DNA of 64,000 nucleotides from Pyrococcus sp. NA2 (GCF_000211475.1 NC_015474.1:1302001-1366000); one strand, 5' to 3'; counted from the stretch's first letter, positions 39,685 to 49,449 are shown. Translations and numbers: made by a program. Notes: generated by a model not told the origin, from the sequence alone.

Positions 39685-39790
39685 AGGATCACCAATTTCA
39701 ATATAGTGGCCAAGGAGTAAATATAAGTGGATTAAATTCTGAAATTCAGAGTACCTTAACTTTATTAATTAACTTTCAAAGCTGAAGGCG

Positions 39791-41758
39791 ATGAGCATTA
39801 TAAGTTTCATCAATAGGCTTAAGGAACTTGTTGAAATTGAGAGAGAAGCTGAAATAGAGGCGATGAGGTTAGAAATGAAGAGGCTTAGCGGAATAGAGAG
39901 GGAGAGGGTTGGAAGGGCTATCCTCAATCTCAACGGTAAGATAATTGGAGAAGAATTAGGATACTTCCTGGTAAAGTATGGAAGGGAAAGGGAGATTAAG
40001 ACCGAGATAAGCGTTGGGGATTTAGTTGTTATAAGCAGAAGGGATCCCCTTAAGAGTGATCTAGTTGGCACGGTTGTTGAGAAGGGTAAGAGGTTCATAG
40101 TTGTTGCCTTGGAAACCGTTCCAGAGTGGGCCCTTAGAGGCGTTAGGATAGACCTCTATGCCAATGATATAACGTTTAAGAGATGGCTGGAAAACCTGGA
40201 TAGAGTTAAGAAGGCTGGAAAGAGGGCGTTGGAGTTTTACCTGGGAATGGAGGAGCCCTCAAGGAGTGAAGAAGTCAAGTTCGAGCCCTTCGATAAGAAC
40301 TTAAATCCGAGCCAAAGAAGGGCCATAGGAAAAGCCCTTGGTAGTGATGACTTCTTCTTGATCCATGGGCCCTTTGGAACTGGAAAGACAAGAACGTTAG
40401 TTGAGCTAATAAGACAAGAGGTGAAAAGAGGGAATAAAGTTCTCGCAACTGCAGAAAGCAACGTGGCTGTGGATAACCTAGTCGAAAGATTGGTAGATGG
40501 TGGGTTGAAGATAGTCAGAGTTGGGCATCCAAGTAGAGTTTCCAGGCACCTGCATGAAACGACGTTGGCTTATCAAATAACAAAACATGAGCTTTATGGC
40601 GAACTGAGAGAGCTCCGAGTGATAGGGCAGAGCCTTGCTGAGAAAAGGGATACATATACAAAGCCATTACCTAAGTATAGGAGAGGTTTAAGTGATTCTG
40701 AGATATTGAGGTTAGCTGAAAGAGGTAGAGGAGCCAGGGGACTCTCAGCTAGGTTAATAAGGGAGATGGCAGAATGGATAAAGCTGAATAGGCAGGTTCA
40801 AAAAGCCTTTGAAGATGCCAGGAAACTTGAGGAAAGGATCGCCAGGGAAATTATAAGAGAGGCTGATGTGGTTCTAACTACGAATTCATCGGCAGCACTT
40901 GAAGTTGTTGATGCAGGAGATTATGATGTTGCGATAATAGATGAGGCAACCCAAGCAACAATACCAAGCATATTGATTCCACTGAATAAGGTGGAGAGAT
41001 TCATCTTAGCCGGTGATCATAAGCAATTACCCCCAACGATACTAAGCCTTGAGGCCCAGGAACTTTCAAGGACTCTCTTTGAAGGTCTAATAGAGAGGTA
41101 TCCCTGGAAGAGCGAAATGTTAACCGTTCAGTACAGAATGAACGAGAGGATAATGGAGTTTCCGAGCAAGGAATTCTATGGAGGGAGGATAGCTGCGGAT
41201 GAGAGCGTTAAGGACATAACTTTGAGAGATCTAGGCATTTTAGTTGATTCTAGTGATATGTGGGCCGAGATATTGAAACCCGAGAATGTCCTGGTGTTCA
41301 TAGATACCTCGAAAGCGGAGAACAAGTGGGAGAGACAGAGAAGGGGTAGCGAGAGCAGGGAAAATCCGCTTGAGGCAAAGATAGTTAGTGAAATCGTGGA
41401 GAGACTATTGAGAATTGGCGTTAAGAAGGAGTGGATAGGCATTATAACTCCTTATGACGATCAAAGGGATCTCATAAGTTTAAACGTTCCTGAAGATGTT
41501 GAGGTGAAGACTGTTGATGGTTACCAGGGAAGAGAGAAGGAAGTGATAATTCTCTCTTTCGTTAGATCTAATAAAGCGGGAGAAATAGGATTCCTCAAAG
41601 ATTTGAGAAGGCTCAATGTTTCTCTAACTAGGGCAAGAAGAAAGCTGATAATCGTTGGCGATTCATCAACTCTCAGTTCTCATGAAACGTATAGGAGGTT
41701 AATCGAATTCATTAAAGAGAAAGGGCTCTTTGTTGATGTGTTGAAATTGTTACCGTAA
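39791..41758 (+). CDS. Upf1/IGHMBP2-like superfamily 1 DNA/RNA helicase
   Basis: The 655-residue SF1B helicase has a beta-barrel 1B insertion and all core motifs. These are Q/I HGPFGTGKTRTLVELI (~residue 195), Ia ATAESNVAVDNLVERL, II VAIIDEATQATIPS, III ILAGDHKQLPPTI, IV TVQYRMNERIMEFPS, V TVDGYQGREKEVIILSFVRSN and VI LNVSLTRARRKLIIVG. This is the archaeal Hcs1/UPF1-like branch, probably acting in RNA or replication-linked processing. The gene is monocistronic, divergent from the regulator/membrane pair. Confidence 0.9.
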   Translation: MSIISFINRLKELVEIEREAEIEAMRLEMKRLSGIERERVGRAILNLNGKIIGEELGYFLVKYGREREIKTEISVGDLVVISRRDPLKSDLVGTVVEKGKRFIVVALETVPEWALRGVRIDLYANDITFKRWLENLDRVKKAGKRALEFYLGMEEPSRSEEVKFEPFDKNLNPSQRRAIGKALGSDDFFLIHGPFGTGKTRTLVELIRQEVKRGNKVLATAESNVAVDNLVERLVDGGLKIVRVGHPSRVSRHLHETTLAYQITKHELYGELRELRVIGQSLAEKRDTYTKPLPKYRRGLSDSEILRLAERGRGARGLSARLIREMAEWIKLNRQVQKAFEDARKLEERIAREIIREADVVLTTNSSAALEVVDAGDYDVAIIDEATQATIPSILIPLNKVERFILAGDHKQLPPTILSLEAQELSRTLFEGLIERYPWKSEMLTVQYRMNERIMEFPSKEFYGGRIAADESVKDITLRDLGILVDSSDMWAEILKPENVLVFIDTSKAENKWERQRRGSESRENPLEAKIVSEIVERLLRIGVKKEWIGIITPYDDQRDLISLNVPEDVEVKTVDGYQGREKEVIILSFVRSNKAGEIGFLKDLRRLNVSLTRARRKLIIVGDSSTLSSHETYRRLIEFIKEKGLFVDVLKLLP

Positions 41759-41801: not shown

Positions 41802-43193
41802 ATGGTTCAAATCATAGACACCACCTTTAGGGATGCTCATCAATCACTTCTTGCAACTAGGCTTAGAACTGAGGACATGTTGAAAATTGCAAGGGTCATG
41901 GATGAAATAGGGTTTTACTCCATGGAAGTTTGGGGCGGGGCAACGTTCGATGTGTGTATAAGGTACCTGGGTGAGGATCCCTGGGAACGACTTAGACTTC
42001 TAAGGGAAGAGATAAGAAGGACAAAACTTCAGATGTTACTCAGGGGAAAGAACCTCGTAGGATATAGGCATTATCCAGAGGATGTTGTGAGGAAATTCAT
42101 TGAAAAAGCATTTGAAAATGGAATAGATATCTTCAGAATATTTGATGCCCTTAACGATATTGAGAACATGGAGGTTGCCATACGCTCAGCTAAGGCAGTG
42201 GGAGCAGAAGTTCAGGGGGTCATAGTGTACACCACAGGTCCAATGTTCACCCTCGAGTATTACTTGAGCAAGGCGGAAGAGTTGATGAGTCGGGATGTTG
42301 ATGTGATAACTATAAAGGATATGGCTGGTTTGTTGGATCCCTATACTGCCTATGAACTTGTTAGAGAAATAAAAAGGGAATATGGAATTCCAGTGAACGT
42401 TCATACTCACTCAACAACGGGAATGGCAGTTGCAACTTATCTAAAGGCAGTTGAAGGTGGTGCAGACTTTATAGATACCTCAATAAGCCCTCTGGCTTTT
42501 GGCACCGCTCAGCCTGGAATACAGACGGTTCAATATGTTCTCAAGCTTAACTTAAAATCCGAGAAAATTAAGGAGGTCTCTGAATACTTAGAGAAATTGC
42601 TAGATGGAAAATATAATATCGACAAGAAGGTGATAGCCGTTAATCCCTACGTTCTAGAATATCAGGTTCCTGGAGGAATGCTTTCGAATTTAATAGCTCA
42701 ACTCAAGGAAATGAGAGCCCTTCACAGGTTAAAAGATGTTTTGAGAGAGATACCTAGAGTTAGGGAAGATCTAGGGTGGCCTCCGCTTGTAACCCCTATG
42801 AGCCAAATAGTTGGAACACAAGCATTGCTAAATGTTCTCTTTGGAAGGTACAAAAGATTGACGAGGGAAGTTAAGGCCTACATAAAAGGAAAGTATGGAA
42901 AACCTCCAGGGAGAATAAATCCAAAACTAGTTGAAATGGTGAGAGATTTTGAGGTTGATGATGACTCCTTGACATTTGAAGAAGCAAGAAGAAAACTAAT
43001 TGAGATGGGTTTCCTAAAGGAAGCCCAAAAGGACGAGAACGTTCTTACTTATGCCCTGTTTCCTCAGATTGCAAAAGAATTCTTTGAAGGAAAAGTTAGG
43101 GAGGATTCTAGACGGAAAGTGTTTAAGAAACTCAAATTATTGATAAATGGAGTGGAGTATGAGGTAGGTATCCTGAGCGATGATGTAGATTAG
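41802..43193 (+). CDS. Pyruvate/oxaloacetate carboxyltransferase (PycB/OadA-like), no biotin domain
   Basis: The 463-residue TIM-barrel protein has the HMGL-like carboxyltransferase signature IIDTTFRDAHQSLLATR, metal-binding VNVHTHSTTGMA and the PYC-OADA C-terminal conserved domain. It lacks the biotinyl AMKM domain, so a separate biotin carrier is required. In archaea such proteins are subunits of pyruvate carboxylase or of Na+-pumping decarboxylases; no partner gene is in this window. GGTGAT precedes ATG 41802. Its last codons overlap a C/D box RNA gene on the same strand. Confidence 0.85.
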   Translation: MVQIIDTTFRDAHQSLLATRLRTEDMLKIARVMDEIGFYSMEVWGGATFDVCIRYLGEDPWERLRLLREEIRRTKLQMLLRGKNLVGYRHYPEDVVRKFIEKAFENGIDIFRIFDALNDIENMEVAIRSAKAVGAEVQGVIVYTTGPMFTLEYYLSKAEELMSRDVDVITIKDMAGLLDPYTAYELVREIKREYGIPVNVHTHSTTGMAVATYLKAVEGGADFIDTSISPLAFGTAQPGIQTVQYVLKLNLKSEKIKEVSEYLEKLLDGKYNIDKKVIAVNPYVLEYQVPGGMLSNLIAQLKEMRALHRLKDVLREIPRVREDLGWPPLVTPMSQIVGTQALLNVLFGRYKRLTREVKAYIKGKYGKPPGRINPKLVEMVRDFEVDDDSLTFEEARRKLIEMGFLKEAQKDENVLTYALFPQIAKEFFEGKVREDSRRKVFKKLKLLINGVEYEVGILSDDVD

Positions 43194-43234
43194 CCCCGAC
43201 TGAGTTGTGATGAGGCTGGCCCATCGCTGAGCTG
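43174..43234 (+). ncRNA. C/D box sRNA overlapping the pycB-like stop codon, candidate
   Basis: The sequence has box C ATGATGT (43180-43186, last base off consensus), a 13-nt guide (43187-43199) and box D' CTGA (43200-43203). A GTT spacer is followed by a perfect box C' GTGATGA (43207-43213), a 13-nt guide (43214-43226) and box D CTGA (43227-43230). Flanking AGC (43176-43178) and GCT (43231-43233) can form the terminal stem. Predicted targets contain UCGGGGCUAAUCU (D' guide) and CGAUGGGCCAG (D guide). The 5' third lies within the last codons of the carboxyltransferase gene, which has precedent for archaeal guide RNAs. Confidence 0.75.
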
Positions 43235-43312: not shown

Positions 43313-44391
43313 TTACTCACCAAGAAGCCGTTTCCACAGCGGGACTACTTTCACGCTCATCTCACCTTCCCTAAGCCTCTTGTATGAGGTACTCAATTCC
43401 AGAGCGTCCCTTAACCACAAAGTCAACTTTTCCTCTTTCCTTCCAGTAATAAAGGGCATAGCCTCTCCTAACTAATTCTACAGTGACAGTATTCTCCATT
43501 CTCCTCCCAAAATCGGAGAAATTGGAGTTTGGGGATTCGATAAAGGCAGGATCAATAACATAGGCCTTTCTTGGAGACTCGAGAGTTTCTTTAAGCTTGT
43601 AGGAGAACCTCCTTGCCGTGACTATCAGGTAGGCCTCCTCAAGGTAGTCAATTCAGCGTGTGGACGCTTCCCACCTTGAAGAGTTTTTGAGCTAGTATAG
43701 GTGAATTCTCAGGGCAAAGTTTGAGATAAGATAGAGGGCCAACTCGTATAGAGTGTAGCGATGTTTTTTCCTCCTCACGATGTCCCTTAGGACTATGCTG
43801 TCGAAGAGCATTCTCCCATAGTCCCTCGCATCGTAGCCCTTAACAACGACCTCAGGGAAGCTGGAGGTATTCGGTAAGGTGGGAGAGGAGCTTTTCCTCT
43901 TTCATCGGAAGCTCGGGCTTTTCCTTAAAGTTTCCCCCCAGAAACTCTCTAAATGAGAAGGGGAACACTTTAACATCGAAATATCTCCCGGTAAGGTGGG
44001 TTGCTAGCTCACTGCCGAGAAGTCTGGAGTTAAACCCGTTATCACGACGTTGTAGCCCAACCGTTGGGCCTTGAAACTATGAGCTCCCACTTTGGGAGAT
44101 TCTGCACCTCATCGAGGAAAACCACCTTAAAGCCCCCATAGACCTCATGGAGAATCTTTAAGAGTTCATCGAAATCGGAAACTTCCGCTAGAACTTCGTC
44201 GTCGAAAGTTCGCATAGCCAAAATTTTCCTTAATGACTCTCACCGCGAGAAAGCTCTTTCCAGCTTTCCTTGGTCCACTGATGACCTTTATAAGGTCTGT
44301 TTTCATGCCTATTCTCGGCGTCTCTTCTAACCTACAGCCCTTTCCTCATTCTTTCAAGTTCGTACCTCTGGGAGAGCACCCTTTCTCTCAT
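43313..44391 (-). pseudogene. Decayed AAA ATPase (AAA_14/DUF4143 type)
   Basis: Reading the minus strand across several frames reconstructs a typical archaeal AAA ATPase. The start is MRERVLSQRYELERMRKGL, followed by the Walker A segment VISGPRKAGKSFLAVRV, Walker B FKVVFLDEVQNLPKWE, and YNVVITG. Then come SELATHLTGRYFDVKVFPFSF, RDYGRMLFDSIVLRDIVRRKK, YVIDPAFIESPNSNFSDFG, and the C-terminal nuclease-like GYALYYWKERGKVDFVVKG, ending VPLWKRLLGE and a stop at 43313-43315. At least four frameshifts or stops break it. These ATPases are frequent in mobile or toxin-like gene sets of Thermococcales. The gene is non-functional as it stands. Confidence 0.8.
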
Positions 44392-44456
44392 CCTACATAT
44401 CCACATAATGCATAATGTTTTAAGTGCATGCAACACTTACCTTTTTCTTTTGAAAG

Positions 44457-44476
44457 CCTCGCCCTTTAGGGTGGGG
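44457..44476 (+). mobile_element. Possible IS200/IS605-type right-end hairpin (relic)
   Basis: CCTCGCCC-TTTA-GGGTGGGG forms an 8-bp stem with two G:T wobbles and a TTTA loop, preceded by GAAAG. The form resembles the GC hairpin at the 3' end of archaeal TnpB genes and their guide RNA. No transposase reading frame remains next to it. It may instead be part of an unrelated RNA or terminator. Offered as a weak call. Confidence 0.3.
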
Positions 44477-44514
44477 ACAAACAACAGTCCAACAGTCTTT
44501 AAACCATTGAAATC

Positions 44515-44523
44515 CTTTTAAAC
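44515..44523 (+). promoter_or_regulatory. TATA-like box for the structured RNA
   Basis: CTTTTAAAC lies about 22-30 nt upstream of the first base of the GC-rich RNA (44539). This is the spacing expected for an archaeal TATA box, and it is preceded by purine-containing sequence suitable for a BRE. A second TTTAAACC box sits at about 44498-44505. Confidence 0.45.
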
Positions 44524-44538
44524 TTTGGAGCGTAATAA

Positions 44539-44763
44539 GGTCTTGGAGGGGCCACTCAAAAGAGGGGTTTCACGTTCCCACTCCGCCTTGGAGTGGTTGA
44601 CGCCGGTAGGCGTCCTCTCAAAAGATGGCCTCTAAGGCGATAACCCCGAGCCGGTAGGGGTAACGGGCTCAAGACCGGGCCCTCGGGCTGAACCGAAAGG
44701 GGTAATCCGAGTAGGTGATGGGCCCGTAAACCTTCCCGCCAATGGCGAGGGGGAGGTCAGATC
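44539..44763 (+). ncRNA. GC-rich structured RNA of ~225 nt, identity unknown
   Basis: This block is strikingly GC-rich in an AT-rich genome, the classic sign of a stable RNA in a hyperthermophile. Helices visible by eye: CACTCC/GGAGTG (44579-44595), GACGCC-GGTA-GGCGTC (44599-44614), and CGGGCCC/GGGCCCG (44676-44682 with 44720-44726) enclosing TCGG/CCGA and an ACC-GAAA-GGGG loop. CCTTCC/GGGAGG encloses CGCC-AAT-GGCG (44731-44756). A closing GGTCT/AGATC stem is at 44539-44543 with 44759-44763. A TATA box precedes it. It is not tRNA or rRNA, and I do not see the RNase P or SRP core motifs. It may match one of the Hgc RNAs reported from P. furiosus, or be new. Confidence 0.7.
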
Positions 44764-45045: not shown

Positions 45046-46497
45046 ATGAATGTTATTAAATTAAAAGATATTACAGCCATAAAAACTGAAATAGACGGCG
45101 TTGAAAAGTTCTTTGTCCTTCATGAAACCTCAGGGTATTTCATCGAGATTGAAAAGGAAACTTATGAAGGCTTAGAAAAACTTAGCAAAGGAGAGAAAGA
45201 TAAGCTCACTAAAGAAGAAAAAACTAAATTGACCGAGCTTTTCATATATACAGCCCAACTACCACAACTCAAAATAAACGAGGATGTACAAGAGCCTATA
45301 TACTTTCTCGGAGGTAGCATTAACGTCTCTCAAGCATGTAACTTCTCATGCGTCTATTGTTATGGAAATAAAGGGCTTTACGGGAACGAAAAGCCGAAAC
45401 TTATGAACTTAGAAACTGCAAAGAAAAGCATTGATTTGTTACTTCAAAAAAGCAGTAATATTACAATAATAACGTTTTTTGGTGGAGAGCCTTTGTTAAA
45501 CTTTAAAGTGATAAAAGAAGCCGTCGAATACGCCAAAAAGAGAGCTAACGAGCTTAATAAAAAAGTATCCTTTACAATAACCACAAAAGGTTATCTATTA
45601 ACTCCAGAAATTGCCGATTTTCTCTTAGAAAACAACTTTGACATAAACATAAGCCTCGATGGATATAGAGAACTACACAACAAAAACAGACTCTTAGCAG
45701 ACGGTAGCCCAACATATAACGTTGTAGCAAACAACATTAAATACCTTCTAAAAAGGGCTAAAGAGCTTGGTAGATTTAAGAATATTTCCATAAAAGCAAC
45801 TCTCATGCCCGACCAAGTTAAAGAAGCTTACAAAGTCTATAAACACATAAAAGAAGAGTTTAACCCACCAATAATAGCAATAGGCTTTGCTACACTCTCC
45901 AATGGTGCAATGACCACAAAACATTTGGACATTTACCTAAAAGAACTCGAAAAAATAGCCATTGATGAATTAGAAACCTTTGGAGAGCTTAACAGAGTGC
46001 TCTTTGGAGATTTCATACTACAATTCAGAGATATTTACGGTGGTAGGATTAAAGCCCAACATTGCGGTGCTGGGTTCGGTAGCATAGCAATAGACGTTGA
46101 TGGGAACGTTTACCCATGCCAAAGATTTGTATCCTTCAAAGATTTCAAACTTAGTGATATAAACTCATTCACCCTAAAAGACCTCTCAAAATTTGAAGGA
46201 CAAAAATATACACCATTTAACCATGAACCATGCAAATCATGTTGGCTTAAGTTCTATTGTCGTAACTTTTGCTACTATGACAACATGATTTACACAGGCA
46301 AAATCATAATTCCATCGAATTTATCATGCTATTATGCAAAAGAAAAATTCAAAATCGGGCTTTGGCTTTATTCAAGACTCTACGACGAATACGAAGAAAA
46401 ATTTGAAGAATACCTCGAAAAGAGCATGAACATGCCCAGAACAACGAGTAATCAGGTTACTTACCTACCACGCAACACGGTTAATGTAAAAACCTAA
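45046..46497 (+). CDS. Radical SAM/SPASM peptide maturase (putative RiPP enzyme)
   Basis: The 483-residue enzyme has an N-terminal ~95-residue region resembling the PqqD-like recognition domain of peptide maturases. The radical SAM core follows, with CNFSCVYC (CxxxCxxC, near residue 100), FFGGEPLLNF and a TIM-barrel. The C-terminal SPASM domain matches the seven-Cys rule exactly: CX12GX4C (CGAG...YPC), then CX2CX5CX3C (CKSCWLKFYCRNFC), then a final Cys in NLSCYYAK. Such enzymes form thioether or C-C crosslinks in ribosomal peptides. Two short Cys-containing peptide genes and an MFS exporter follow directly. Codon use is A-rich compared with neighbours, suggesting acquisition. Confidence 0.92.
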   Translation: MNVIKLKDITAIKTEIDGVEKFFVLHETSGYFIEIEKETYEGLEKLSKGEKDKLTKEEKTKLTELFIYTAQLPQLKINEDVQEPIYFLGGSINVSQACNFSCVYCYGNKGLYGNEKPKLMNLETAKKSIDLLLQKSSNITIITFFGGEPLLNFKVIKEAVEYAKKRANELNKKVSFTITTKGYLLTPEIADFLLENNFDINISLDGYRELHNKNRLLADGSPTYNVVANNIKYLLKRAKELGRFKNISIKATLMPDQVKEAYKVYKHIKEEFNPPIIAIGFATLSNGAMTTKHLDIYLKELEKIAIDELETFGELNRVLFGDFILQFRDIYGGRIKAQHCGAGFGSIAIDVDGNVYPCQRFVSFKDFKLSDINSFTLKDLSKFEGQKYTPFNHEPCKSCWLKFYCRNFCYYDNMIYTGKIIIPSNLSCYYAKEKFKIGLWLYSRLYDEYEEKFEEYLEKSMNMPRTTSNQVTYLPRNTVNVKT

Positions 46498-46531
46498 CAT
46501 ATTGTCTTAAAAAATTAAAGAAGGGATGAAC

Positions 46532-46624
46532 ATGAGAGTTTTAACGAAAAAACGCCAAACGACCACGAGGTATATATGTGGTAGCATTGCCGATGTAATG
46601 TGTGAGGTTAGCTATGTAGAATGA
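46532..46624 (+). CDS. Putative RiPP precursor peptide 1 (30 aa)
   Basis: ATG 46532, 34 nt after the maturase stop and preceded by AAGGGATGA, opens a 30-codon frame. It begins MRVLTKKRQTTTR, continues YICGSIADVMCE and ends VSYVE. The N-terminal part is basic and could be the leader; the C-terminal part has two Cys eight residues apart and acidic residues. The second peptide gene 41 nt downstream shares MRxLTK and YxCxSIxDxxCE at the same spacing. Conservation of exactly the Cys, Ser-Ile, Asp and Glu positions between otherwise diverged copies argues for selection. The ribosome site is weaker than that of peptide 2. Confidence 0.75.
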   Translation: MRVLTKKRQTTTRYICGSIADVMCEVSYVE

Positions 46625-46664
46625 TTCTAAATCCCGCTCACAACTTAAAGGAGGTGAAAACGAA

Positions 46665-46763
46665 ATGAGAGCCTTGACCAAAGCCAAACCAACCATAGCC
46701 AACCTCTATGCATGCAACAGCATCGGCGACATCCTCTGTGAGAAAATCCACGAAATATTCTGA
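46665..46763 (+). CDS. Putative RiPP precursor peptide 2 (32 aa)
   Basis: A perfect AGGAGGTGA (46650-46658) precedes ATG 46665 by 6 nt. The 32-codon frame begins MRALTKAKPTIANL, continues YACNSIGDILCE and ends KIHEIF. It is a paralogue of peptide 1, with identical positions MR, LTK, T10, Y, C, SI, D and CE. The strong ribosome site shows that the small frame is meant to be translated. It is predicted to be modified by the upstream radical SAM/SPASM enzyme and exported by the MFS protein downstream; those roles are inferred from context. Confidence 0.82.
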   Translation: MRALTKAKPTIANLYACNSIGDILCEKIHEIF

Positions 46764-46803
46764 AACCAAAAACACGATGTAGCAAATAGAAAGATTGTTC
46801 AAA

Positions 46804-46823
46804 CTTTTTCCTTTTTATTTTTT
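46804..46823 (+). terminator. T-rich tract between precursor peptides and exporter
   Basis: A nearly continuous run of T (interrupted by CC and A) lies 41 nt after the stop of peptide 2 and before the exporter's Shine-Dalgarno. It has the form of an archaeal terminator. Partial termination here would give more precursor and maturase than exporter transcript. Confidence 0.45.
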
Positions 46824-46848
46824 AATAAAACCAATAGGAGGCTTTCAA

Positions 46849-48066
46849 ATGGATTTAATCAAAAGATACATGGTGCTTTACGCTCTAATGAACACAAGCT
46901 TTGTAAGTGGGATTATAACTATTTACTATCTTGCAAAAGGCTTAACATACGCTCAAATAGGAATAGCAACCGCAATATCAACCATTGGCTTCTTCCTATT
47001 CGAAGTTCCAACAGGAGTAATCGGAGACAAAATAAGCCGAAAGAAAAGCGTCCTAATCGGCTTAACACTCTTCCCAATCGGCACAATAATCCTAATATTC
47101 CTAAAAAACTTCCCAATGCTAATAGCCTACGCTATAATAACCTCCCTCAGCCTAACATTCATCAGCGGAAGCTTAGAAGCATGGCTATTTGACAACCTCA
47201 AACATCTCGGCAAGGAAAAAGAATACAGAAAACTCATGAAAAGCATAAAAACCATAACTCTACCATTATCAGCAACAACAATCGTAATCGGAAGCTTTTT
47301 AGCCCAAAAATATGGCTTCAAACTACCACTAACCCTATCATTAGCACTCGAAATAACAATGCTCATAGTAGCCCTAAGCATCCCCGAATATGAGTTTAAA
47401 AAGCCTAAGGTTGCCTATCACATTCACGTTTTACACTCAATCAAAGAAATCACAAAACCAAACATACTCTGGCTAATTATTGTAGCAATAATCGTAACCA
47501 TGTCAATCAACCAATTCCGACAATACTTTGAACCTTACTTGGGCAACATCTTAGCTCAGAGCCTCAAAACCACCATAATGGGAACGTTGGGTATTCTCGG
47601 ACTAATCGAGGCAATAGTAAAAGTCATCCCTAAAATAATTGGCGTAAGGCTTAAAGAAAAATGGAGTGTCTTCGCTTACTCAATAGCACCCGTGAGCATT
47701 CCAATGCTCACGGCATTATCAGTAATCCACCAAAATCCTATCTTCATCGTAATACTTGGAGTTATTGCAACGATAATCAACACGGCTTATGCCTTCAACT
47801 TTGGCATTGAATTGCAAGTAAGAATCCCCAGCGAAAAAAGAGCAACCATAATATCTCTTTATTCCATGATTTCAGCCCTGATAATGGCAATCTTCTACGG
47901 AATCTATGGTCTTATCGTTGATAAACTTGGCTTAGCAGAGGCAAGATTAGTATTTGCACTAACCCTCTTTGGCATTGGTTTAGCATTCAAAGGAGCACAA
48001 ACAATTGGAATCCTGAAAGAACCATTAGAACTAAAACACCTACAACTTCTTTCAAAGGAGCAATAG
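46849..48066 (+). CDS. MFS transporter, putative peptide exporter
   Basis: The 405-residue protein has twelve predicted membrane spans. Its MFS signature between TM2 and TM3 reads FEVPTGVIGDKISRKKSVLIG (the GxxxDxxxRKK loop), typical of drug-efflux type carriers. The frame extends to TTG 46795, but AGGAGG (46836-46841) precedes ATG 46849, which gives the MDLIKRYMVLYAL start. Its place directly after a peptide maturase and two precursors suggests export of, or resistance to, the modified peptide. Like the maturase gene it favours C/A-ending codons and contains CGA/CGC-type Arg codons rare in the neighbours. Confidence 0.85.
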   Translation: MDLIKRYMVLYALMNTSFVSGIITIYYLAKGLTYAQIGIATAISTIGFFLFEVPTGVIGDKISRKKSVLIGLTLFPIGTIILIFLKNFPMLIAYAIITSLSLTFISGSLEAWLFDNLKHLGKEKEYRKLMKSIKTITLPLSATTIVIGSFLAQKYGFKLPLTLSLALEITMLIVALSIPEYEFKKPKVAYHIHVLHSIKEITKPNILWLIIVAIIVTMSINQFRQYFEPYLGNILAQSLKTTIMGTLGILGLIEAIVKVIPKIIGVRLKEKWSVFAYSIAPVSIPMLTALSVIHQNPIFIVILGVIATIINTAYAFNFGIELQVRIPSEKRATIISLYSMISALIMAIFYGIYGLIVDKLGLAEARLVFALTLFGIGLAFKGAQTIGILKEPLELKHLQLLSKEQ

Positions 48067-48318: not shown

Positions 48319-49449
48319 ATGGATAACTTGGACATTAAATTTATCGTCTTCCTTACCATCTTTATTTTAATCGGGGCATATATTATTGGCGTTCCAGACA
48401 TGTTTTTCTCAAAGCATCAGTCAAATCCTCCACATCCATACGTGTATTCAAAGGAGGACATTGAAGAAATGCAGAAGCATTATTCCCTAGCAAATTTCAG
48501 CGGCCTCACTACGGACGCTTCATTGATAAACAAAACACGCTCACTGTTCATGGAACTTAACAGCACTAGAAAATGTAGCATTTTAATAAGAGACATGGAA
48601 AGGGATTTCTATTCTGCAAGAATCTACACGTTCGTGCCAACGTTTGCATACTTGGCTGCAGATAAGATAGAGTGCAACATGAACCAATATAAAGGAAACG
48701 TTAGCTTAGCCCTAAGCGAGGTAGAAAAGCTCCTAAGTGAAATAAGGGAGATCGAAAAGACAAAAGGCCAATCTCCGTGGTTAGCCGTTGCAGAACTCTA
48801 CCTAGAATGGTCTCAAAACCCAAACATGACTTCTACACGGGTCATCTTTACCCTTGAGTATCTCATACCATTCCTTAAGGAGCACATTGAAGGAGAATAC
48901 GAGAGAATTAATTTTGAGCTGTCCAATATTACGAGAACTAGGATGAAAGTTGAAGAATTAGAAAGAGCCCTAAAAGAGGACAAAACTCAGAGAGCTAACT
49001 TAATAGTCTTTGCCTCAGCTTGGCTGAACATGTCGGAGGAAGCATATAAGAAAGGTGAGAAATCACTTGCCCTATGGTATTATTCGGTTGCTCTCGCGTA
49101 CCTTAATTTAACCGAAACGGAGTGGGCCAAGGCTCCCCATCCGTACTTTGTTGGGGGAGGGCTTCAGAAAGAAAAGGACGTGCCCTACAATATTACAGGA
49201 ATCAGAAAAGAAGTTTACGAAAGGGCATTGGCCTTTGCTAGGAAGAAGGGAGAAGGGCCTTATGCAGAGCTCCTATCCAATTACGTTCTATTAGATCTTT
49301 GGGCATTAGATTCATCCACACTTCCAAAGCTTTCAGATCCAAATAATCCCCTCCTGAAGTATTACCCCTCTGCCACGTATGAAGAATATTTACGCCTTTT
49401 AGGCATGGTGGTTGCCTTGGAAATCTTTGCTTCTCATTTCTCCTCTTAG
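48319..49449 (+). CDS. Secreted/membrane-anchored helical protein of unknown function
   Basis: The 376-residue protein has one N-terminal membrane segment (FIVFLTIFILIGAYIIGVPDMFF). A long, mostly alpha-helical exterior follows, with TPR-like helix pairs (FASAWLNMSEEAYKKGEKSLALWYYSVALAYLNLTETEW) and many N-x-S/T sequons. I do not recognise the family. It is flanked by the RiPP-like locus (252 nt upstream) and convergent hypF. A TATA-like AATTTTTAAATAG at ~48270-48282 serves it separately. Codon use returns to the Pyrococcus norm. Confidence 0.65.
   Translation: MDNLDIKFIVFLTIFILIGAYIIGVPDMFFSKHQSNPPHPYVYSKEDIEEMQKHYSLANFSGLTTDASLINKTRSLFMELNSTRKCSILIRDMERDFYSARIYTFVPTFAYLAADKIECNMNQYKGNVSLALSEVEKLLSEIREIEKTKGQSPWLAVAELYLEWSQNPNMTSTRVIFTLEYLIPFLKEHIEGEYERINFELSNITRTRMKVEELERALKEDKTQRANLIVFASAWLNMSEEAYKKGEKSLALWYYSVALAYLNLTETEWAKAPHPYFVGGGLQKEKDVPYNITGIRKEVYERALAFARKKGEGPYAELLSNYVLLDLWALDSSTLPKLSDPNNPLLKYYPSATYEEYLRLLGMVVALEIFASHFSS

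Follow-up and report, generated by a model that had tools for sequence, protein, structure and literature searches.

The locus at 45046-48066 of the 64,000-nucleotide stretch of Pyrococcus sp. NA2 DNA analysed here (the window) raises the question of whether a radical SAM/SPASM enzyme, two very short frames and an MFS transporter gene together make a ribosomally synthesised and post-translationally modified peptide (RiPP), as the initial annotation had proposed, and by which chemistry. Reading of the ORFs and the surrounding sequence confirmed the tandem order of maturase, two peptide frames of 30-32 aa and MFS gene (Table 1), with the start codons slightly in question. The peptide 1 frame is open from an ATG at 46526, which would give 32 aa, and from a second ATG at 46532, which gives 30 aa; homologues suggest the second as the start. 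The MFS frame is open from a TTG at 46795, and the ATG at 46849, preceded by AGGAGG, is the likely start because homologues start there; the protein scored 82.5 bits against Pfam MFS_1 (cut-off 33.4). The T-rich tract before the MFS gene, which satisfied a numeric criterion in four of the six cassettes read and was recognised by eye as T-runs in the other two, is possibly a partial terminator.

Table 1. Features of the cassette, its upstream flank and the third-clade peptide genes. Coordinates are those of the window unless a contig is named.
Feature	Coordinates	Strand	Basis or remarks
C/D box sRNA	43176-43233	+	Rfam RF00095, 53.5 bits; overlaps 3' end of carboxylase-like gene 41802-43193
Broken AAA-type ATPase frame fragments (KVISGPRKAGKSF...)	43313-44306	-	Between sRNA and repeat relic
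GC-rich repeat relic	44436-44748		About 300 bases upstream of maturase; 12 partial matches within the genome, one next to a TnpB-like frame (L113)
Radical SAM/SPASM peptide maturase, 483 aa	45046..46497	+	ORF; PF04055 and PF13186 above cut-off; seven invariant SPASM Cys; AF2 model and Foldseek match to CteB
Precursor peptide gene 1, MRVLTKKRQTTTRYICGSIADVMCEVSYVE	46532..46624	+	Sequence; profile match 1.4e-12 (profile includes peptide 1); paralogue of peptide 2
Precursor peptide gene 2, MRALTKAKPTIANLYACNSIGDILCEKIHEIF, 32 aa, strong SD AAAGGAGGTGA	46665..46763	+	Sequence; kept in G003 and L001
Pyrimidine/T-rich tract after the last peptide gene and before the MFS gene	46803..46825	+	Same place in 6/6 cassettes read
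MFS drug-efflux-type transporter, 405 aa from ATG 46849	46849..48066	+	Pfam MFS_1; third gene in every cassette found
Third-clade peptides, MEFEVVNPGD...	L026:9463-9615, L095:4519-4665, L096:5986-6132, L097:4520-4666		Motifs CGVLD, CPFPED, CWWPED, CYGPE/CYRPE

The initial annotation had made its reading depend on codon-level conservation of the peptide frames and on their presence beside maturase homologues, and both were found. A peptide frame occupies the same position in genome G003 (maturase 75% identical to that of the window) and on contig L001 (82%). Peptide 2 and the G003 peptide differ at 36 bases, 22 of which are third positions (22/31 third versus 14/62 first and second positions), with pN at 0.24 against pS at 0.91, and amino acid identity is 74% in frame compared with 27-40% in the other two frames. 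By this comparison the peptide frames are under purifying selection, and chance ORFs were ruled out by the codon test together with recurrence at the equivalent position in six other loci. The same cassette in these six Thermococcaceae loci likewise upholds the proposed RiPP-cluster organisation.

A search profile made from four peptides of three cassettes was run over 94 Thermococcaceae genomes and retrieved three further genomes blind, G110, G081 and G082, at E about 1e-7, each match being flanked by a maturase of the window clade and an MFS gene; searching reciprocally with the maturase added G071 and also G096, which contributed two peptides. Searching the same 94 genomes with an 11-peptide profile, to answer the initial annotation's question of whether the peptide always lies beside the maturase, revealed no peptide away from one; this later profile contains the known peptides, and the informative results are the blind matches of the earlier one and the absence of strays. 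An apparent free-standing peptide in G079 (E 0.037) was discarded, since the match covers 15 residues within a frame of 313 aa. In the genomes searched, such peptides immediately follow every intact maturase of the window clade. The sole member of the clade that lacks them, G071 (L085), has a maturase ending near residue 300 with an intact MFS gene directly next; the locus shares its site, next to an enolase-like gene, with those of G081 and G082, and is on this evidence a natural deletion in which the C-terminal half of the maturase and the peptides were lost together.

The short frames are thus adjacent to the maturase gene, conserved at the codon level and co-inherited with it, in the manner of RiPP precursor genes, although the window peptides gave no match to the precursor models of NCBIfam and Pfam. 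Because codon-level conservation coincides with the presence of peptides behind every intact maturase of the clade, there is strong genetic support for the proposal that both peptides are substrates of the maturase, and we regard it as very probable.

Peptide copy number varies among loci, with one copy in G003, L001, G081 and G082, two in the window and G096 and four in G110. Across the 11 distinct peptides C17, D22 and C25 are invariant, R2 and E26 are nearly so, and M1 is encoded in 9/11, having been entered by hand in the alignment for two G110 copies with ATA or AGG. Most copies have the leader MR[AV]L[TV][KR]xxP, and the core is C-x4-D-x2-C, followed by E in 10/11 peptides (the first G110 copy has x1 and no E). 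The motif first described for the window, MRxLTK...YxCxSIxDxxCE, therefore proved too narrow for the family, while its Cys/Asp core recurs. A Cys followed by an acid at short spacing, as in ranthipeptides, is present as C17-x4-D22 in 11/11 peptides. Around the second Cys, an acid stands at exactly +5 in 7/11 peptides (reached by 47/20000 shuffles); acids at +3 to +5 taken as a class are not enriched (1499/20000 shuffles), and across the 11 peptides the spacing of the second acid varies from +4 to +7. Because of the acid at exactly +5, peptide 2 can be read as C-NSIG-D-IL-C-EKIH-E, i.e. two tandem C-x4-[DE] units. The third and fourth G110 copies (L036:8875-9093) retain the codons conserved elsewhere as well as a ribosome site; at the expected ATG, however, they carry ATA and AGG, which may represent rare starts, decay or an assembly error.

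The maturase carries the radical SAM motif CNFSCVYC at residues 98-105 (C98xxxC102xxC105) and belongs to both Pfam Radical_SAM (PF04055, 78.3 bits, cut-off 29.5) and SPASM (PF13186, 27.9 bits, cut-off 21.5). Its SPASM cysteines, C340-X12-G-X4-C358, C396-X2-C399-X5-C405-X3-C409 and C428, were all invariant in an alignment of 15 homologues, bearing out the full seven-Cys signature noted initially. The AlphaFold model (overall pLDDT 79.9, pTM 0.85) begins with a beta-beta-beta-alpha-alpha arrangement at residues 9-71 (pLDDT mostly 84-94), and the top PDB match in Foldseek was full-length CteB (5WHY/5WGG; TMt 0.84-0.86 over 451-461 columns), with its N-terminal RRE included in the alignment; CteB was also the nearest solved structure by sequence (8e-47). 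The predicted start and the full-length match support the view that the N-terminal domain (about residues 9-71) is a PqqD-like RRE at the level of the fold, as had been proposed. In G082 the maturase gene (L038, about 8960) contains an in-frame TGA ahead of the final SPASM Cys; the close relative G081 has a sense codon there, and the G082 peptide is intact.

The maturase falls below every curated NCBIfam cut-off for the PapB, nif11, QhpD and SCIFF families, the nearest models being those of thioether-forming or related peptide maturases. Membership was rejected for the nif11-like peptide maturases (TIGR04064, 248.7 bits, cut-off 518.7), whose nif11 leader the window precursors lack, for PapB (NF047865, 235 bits, cut-off 340), for QhpD (TIGR03906, 219.5 bits, cut-off 453) and for the SCIFF maturases (TIGR03974, 198.2 bits, cut-off 425), the window precursors having two conserved Cys, not six. 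Since every score is below its cut-off, the enzyme was filed as PapB-like in its working and not as a family member.

Related maturases within the same archaeal family bear on the chemistry. The nearest other Thermococcaceae maturases, 35-38% identical to that of the window, are followed in nine genomes (L024, L025, L088-L094) by one or two tandem copies of a 42-67-aa peptide with an MFKKLN-type start and dense Cys-X2-4-Asp motifs. In these sister peptides Asp is found at +3 to +5 for 95/103 Cys (shuffle mean 52.1, 0/5000 shuffles as high), and the reverse order, Asp at -3 to -5 of Cys, is depleted; the two sister peptides tested gave no family-library match. ABC transporter-like genes surround the sister loci instead of an MFS gene (annotated by eye from sequence starts). 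In a third clade (Table 1) the motifs CGVLD, CPFPED and CWWPED account for 9/12 Cys, CPFPED and CWWPED being C-x4-D, and two membrane-protein genes lie downstream. The occurrence of three maturase/peptide families within one archaeal family suggests that thioether peptides may be a shared trait of many Thermococcaceae.

PapB links Cys-Xn-Asp/Glu (n = 0-6) by joining the Cys sulfur to the Asp beta-carbon or the Glu gamma-carbon, and failed on the transposed order, Asp...Cys (PMC9413430); the Cys-before-acid direction of the sister peptides is PapB's direction. By analogy, and with moderate confidence, the window maturase would work like PapB while standing outside its family. The PqqD-like domain would bind the conserved MRxLxK leader of each precursor of about 32 aa, and an AdoMet-derived radical would take a hydrogen from the beta-carbon of the Asp22 side chain and probably likewise from the gamma-carbon of the downstream Glu; the Cys N-terminal to each acid would then be joined through its sulfur to the activated carbon. 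For peptide 2 as many as two thioether rings in line are predicted, C17-D22 and C25-E30, with 2 Da lost for each, the second ring being proposed with weak to moderate confidence. No peptidase gene is present in the cassette, and an unlinked cellular protease would cut off the leader before probable export by the MFS protein.

Cys-to-Asp/Glu thioether rings are favoured over other modifications because the sister maturases precede peptides packed with Cys-X2-4-Asp; if the peptides are the substrates, we consider this chemistry likely, and the joint proposition that the cassette makes a RiPP from these substrates by such linkage is slightly less secure, but still probable. Counting against it, the maturase scores below the PapB cut-off, and the window peptides keep one strictly spaced Cys-acid pair, whereas those of the sister clades are dense in Cys-Asp. 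The same cassette might instead install sactipeptide linkages (Cys to alpha-carbon) or another Cys or backbone modification on C17 and C25, and the two invariant Cys, the sub-cut-off matches to several sactipeptide and other maturase models, and the PDB title of the nearest solved structure, CteB, which refers to sactipeptide thioether formation, would all accord with this; we nevertheless judge it unlikely, as neither an invariant Asp at fixed spacing nor Cys-Asp-rich sister substrates would be expected if any alpha-carbon could serve as acceptor.

PQQ-type systems also pair a PqqD-like domain with short precursors, and two Cys with acids could bind metal, so that the peptide might be the precursor of a small redox cofactor (in the style of PQQ or mycofactocin) or a metal-binding peptide, in which case the MFS protein would have nothing to do with exporting an antagonistic product. 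The one to four divergent copies at each locus and the patchy, mobile distribution are unlike a cofactor pathway, the cassette has no accessory enzymes, and the lack of any matching NCBIfam or Pfam precursor model also weighs against this explanation, which appears improbable. Most improbable is that the small frames, lying between the maturase and MFS genes, are chance ORFs or leader frames with a regulatory role and not translated substrates: their very short length and the two G110 copies without a standard start codon would fit, but codon-level conservation, strong SD sites, copy-number variation, the conserved C-x4-D-x2-C core and strict co-occurrence with the maturase would then have no ready place.

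The suggestion that the MFS protein exports the peptides is weakly supported. Its gene is third in every cassette found, a position that suggests export or self-protection; however, MFS homologues occur in 58/94 Thermococcaceae genomes, most of them without a maturase, and a cassette-specific transporter was rejected, since homologues of more than 50% identity lie beside unrelated genes in many genomes that have neither maturase nor peptides. Export is thus weakly suggested by gene position. As the tandem copies are divergent and the spread is patchy, antagonistic or signalling peptides fit better than a cofactor pathway, although either role is speculative.

The order maturase, peptide(s), MFS gene is common to the window, G003, G081, G082, G096, G110 and contig L001, with several kinds of flanking sequence among the seven loci. 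G001 and G007 lack the cassette-bearing stretch, the two sides of window 41.7-48.3 kb being adjacent there. The three-part gene cassette is mobile. In the maturase gene tree the window is placed next to L001 (support 0.81), apart from the Pyrococcus genome G003, and the flank of L001 shares 92-93% identity with genomes from a different genus, which we take to be Thermococcus. The 'Thermotogota' label of L001 (JAADCS010000157.1) was rejected on the basis of this flank as a binning error in a public MAG. Because the window maturase pairs with L001, whose flank belongs to another genus, transfer of the cassette between genera is likely, a reading limited by the moderate tree support and by the partial sequence of L001. 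A search of the phylum of G058, run without a positive control, found no close maturases, a negative of little weight.

Upstream of the maturase, the repeat relic (Table 1) is probably an IS200/IS605-type remnant. Compared with G001 and G007, window 39752-41735 has the opposite orientation; in those two genomes its other end adjoins the orthologue of 48319-49449. G001 has a 98% identical copy of the C/D box sRNA elsewhere, between that orthologue and hypF.

Taken to its fullest extent, the locus would encode the first RiPP made by a radical SAM enzyme in a hyperthermophilic archaeon. The product would be a small ranthipeptide, bicyclic through two Cys-(Asp/Glu) thioether rings in line; the MFS protein would export it, horizontal transfer would have carried it among Thermococcales, it would serve in antagonism or signalling, and the sister clades would make multi-ring relatives. 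We offer this tentatively, as possible rather than probable. The locus is in any case a compact test case, comprising an enzyme, two substrates and a transporter, with natural variation to guide mutants and parts that are presumably thermostable.

Ranthipeptides and sactipeptides are among the abundant archaeal classes in the antiSMASH survey of Song et al. 2025, where clusters were reported in aggregate and only lanthipeptides were characterised; neither Thermococcales nor Pyrococcus is named in its main text (PMC12144867). In the literature searched, lanthipeptides are the only archaeal products characterised, and nothing of the kind proposed here is so far known from a hyperthermophilic archaeon. 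Our literature search found no report of a Thermococcales radical-SAM RiPP, an absence that is not proof, with subscription papers outside its scope. The cassette would represent a new family of RiPPs within an already established kind. The nif11-like maturases (TIGR04064) provide the best NCBIfam match, over nearly the full length (residues 34-450), whereas the window precursors lack a nif11 leader and any family match. SCIFF/CteB is nearest among solved structures by both sequence and fold, but SCIFF precursors have six Cys in forty-five residues compared with two conserved Cys here. The quinohemoprotein amine dehydrogenase maturase QhpD forms Cys to Asp/Glu thioethers; it acts, however, on an enzyme subunit rather than on a peptide of 32 aa, and the window cassette has no amine dehydrogenase genes. 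The ranthipeptide system PapB/PapA likewise sets a radical SAM/SPASM maturase beside a Cys-Xn-Asp precursor, NF047865 being the second-best NCBIfam match, and the window C-x4-D lies within PapB's accepted range of n = 0-6 (PMC9413430). PapA has six C-x3-D motifs, whereas the window peptides have one or two C-x4-[DE] pairs, and the window cassette differs further in its 30-37 aa precursors with an MRxLxK leader, its archaeal host and the MFS gene within the cassette. If the proposed chemistry is correct, a thermostable enzyme that crosslinks Cys to Asp/Glu in a substrate of 32 aa would find use as a tool, as PapB already has.
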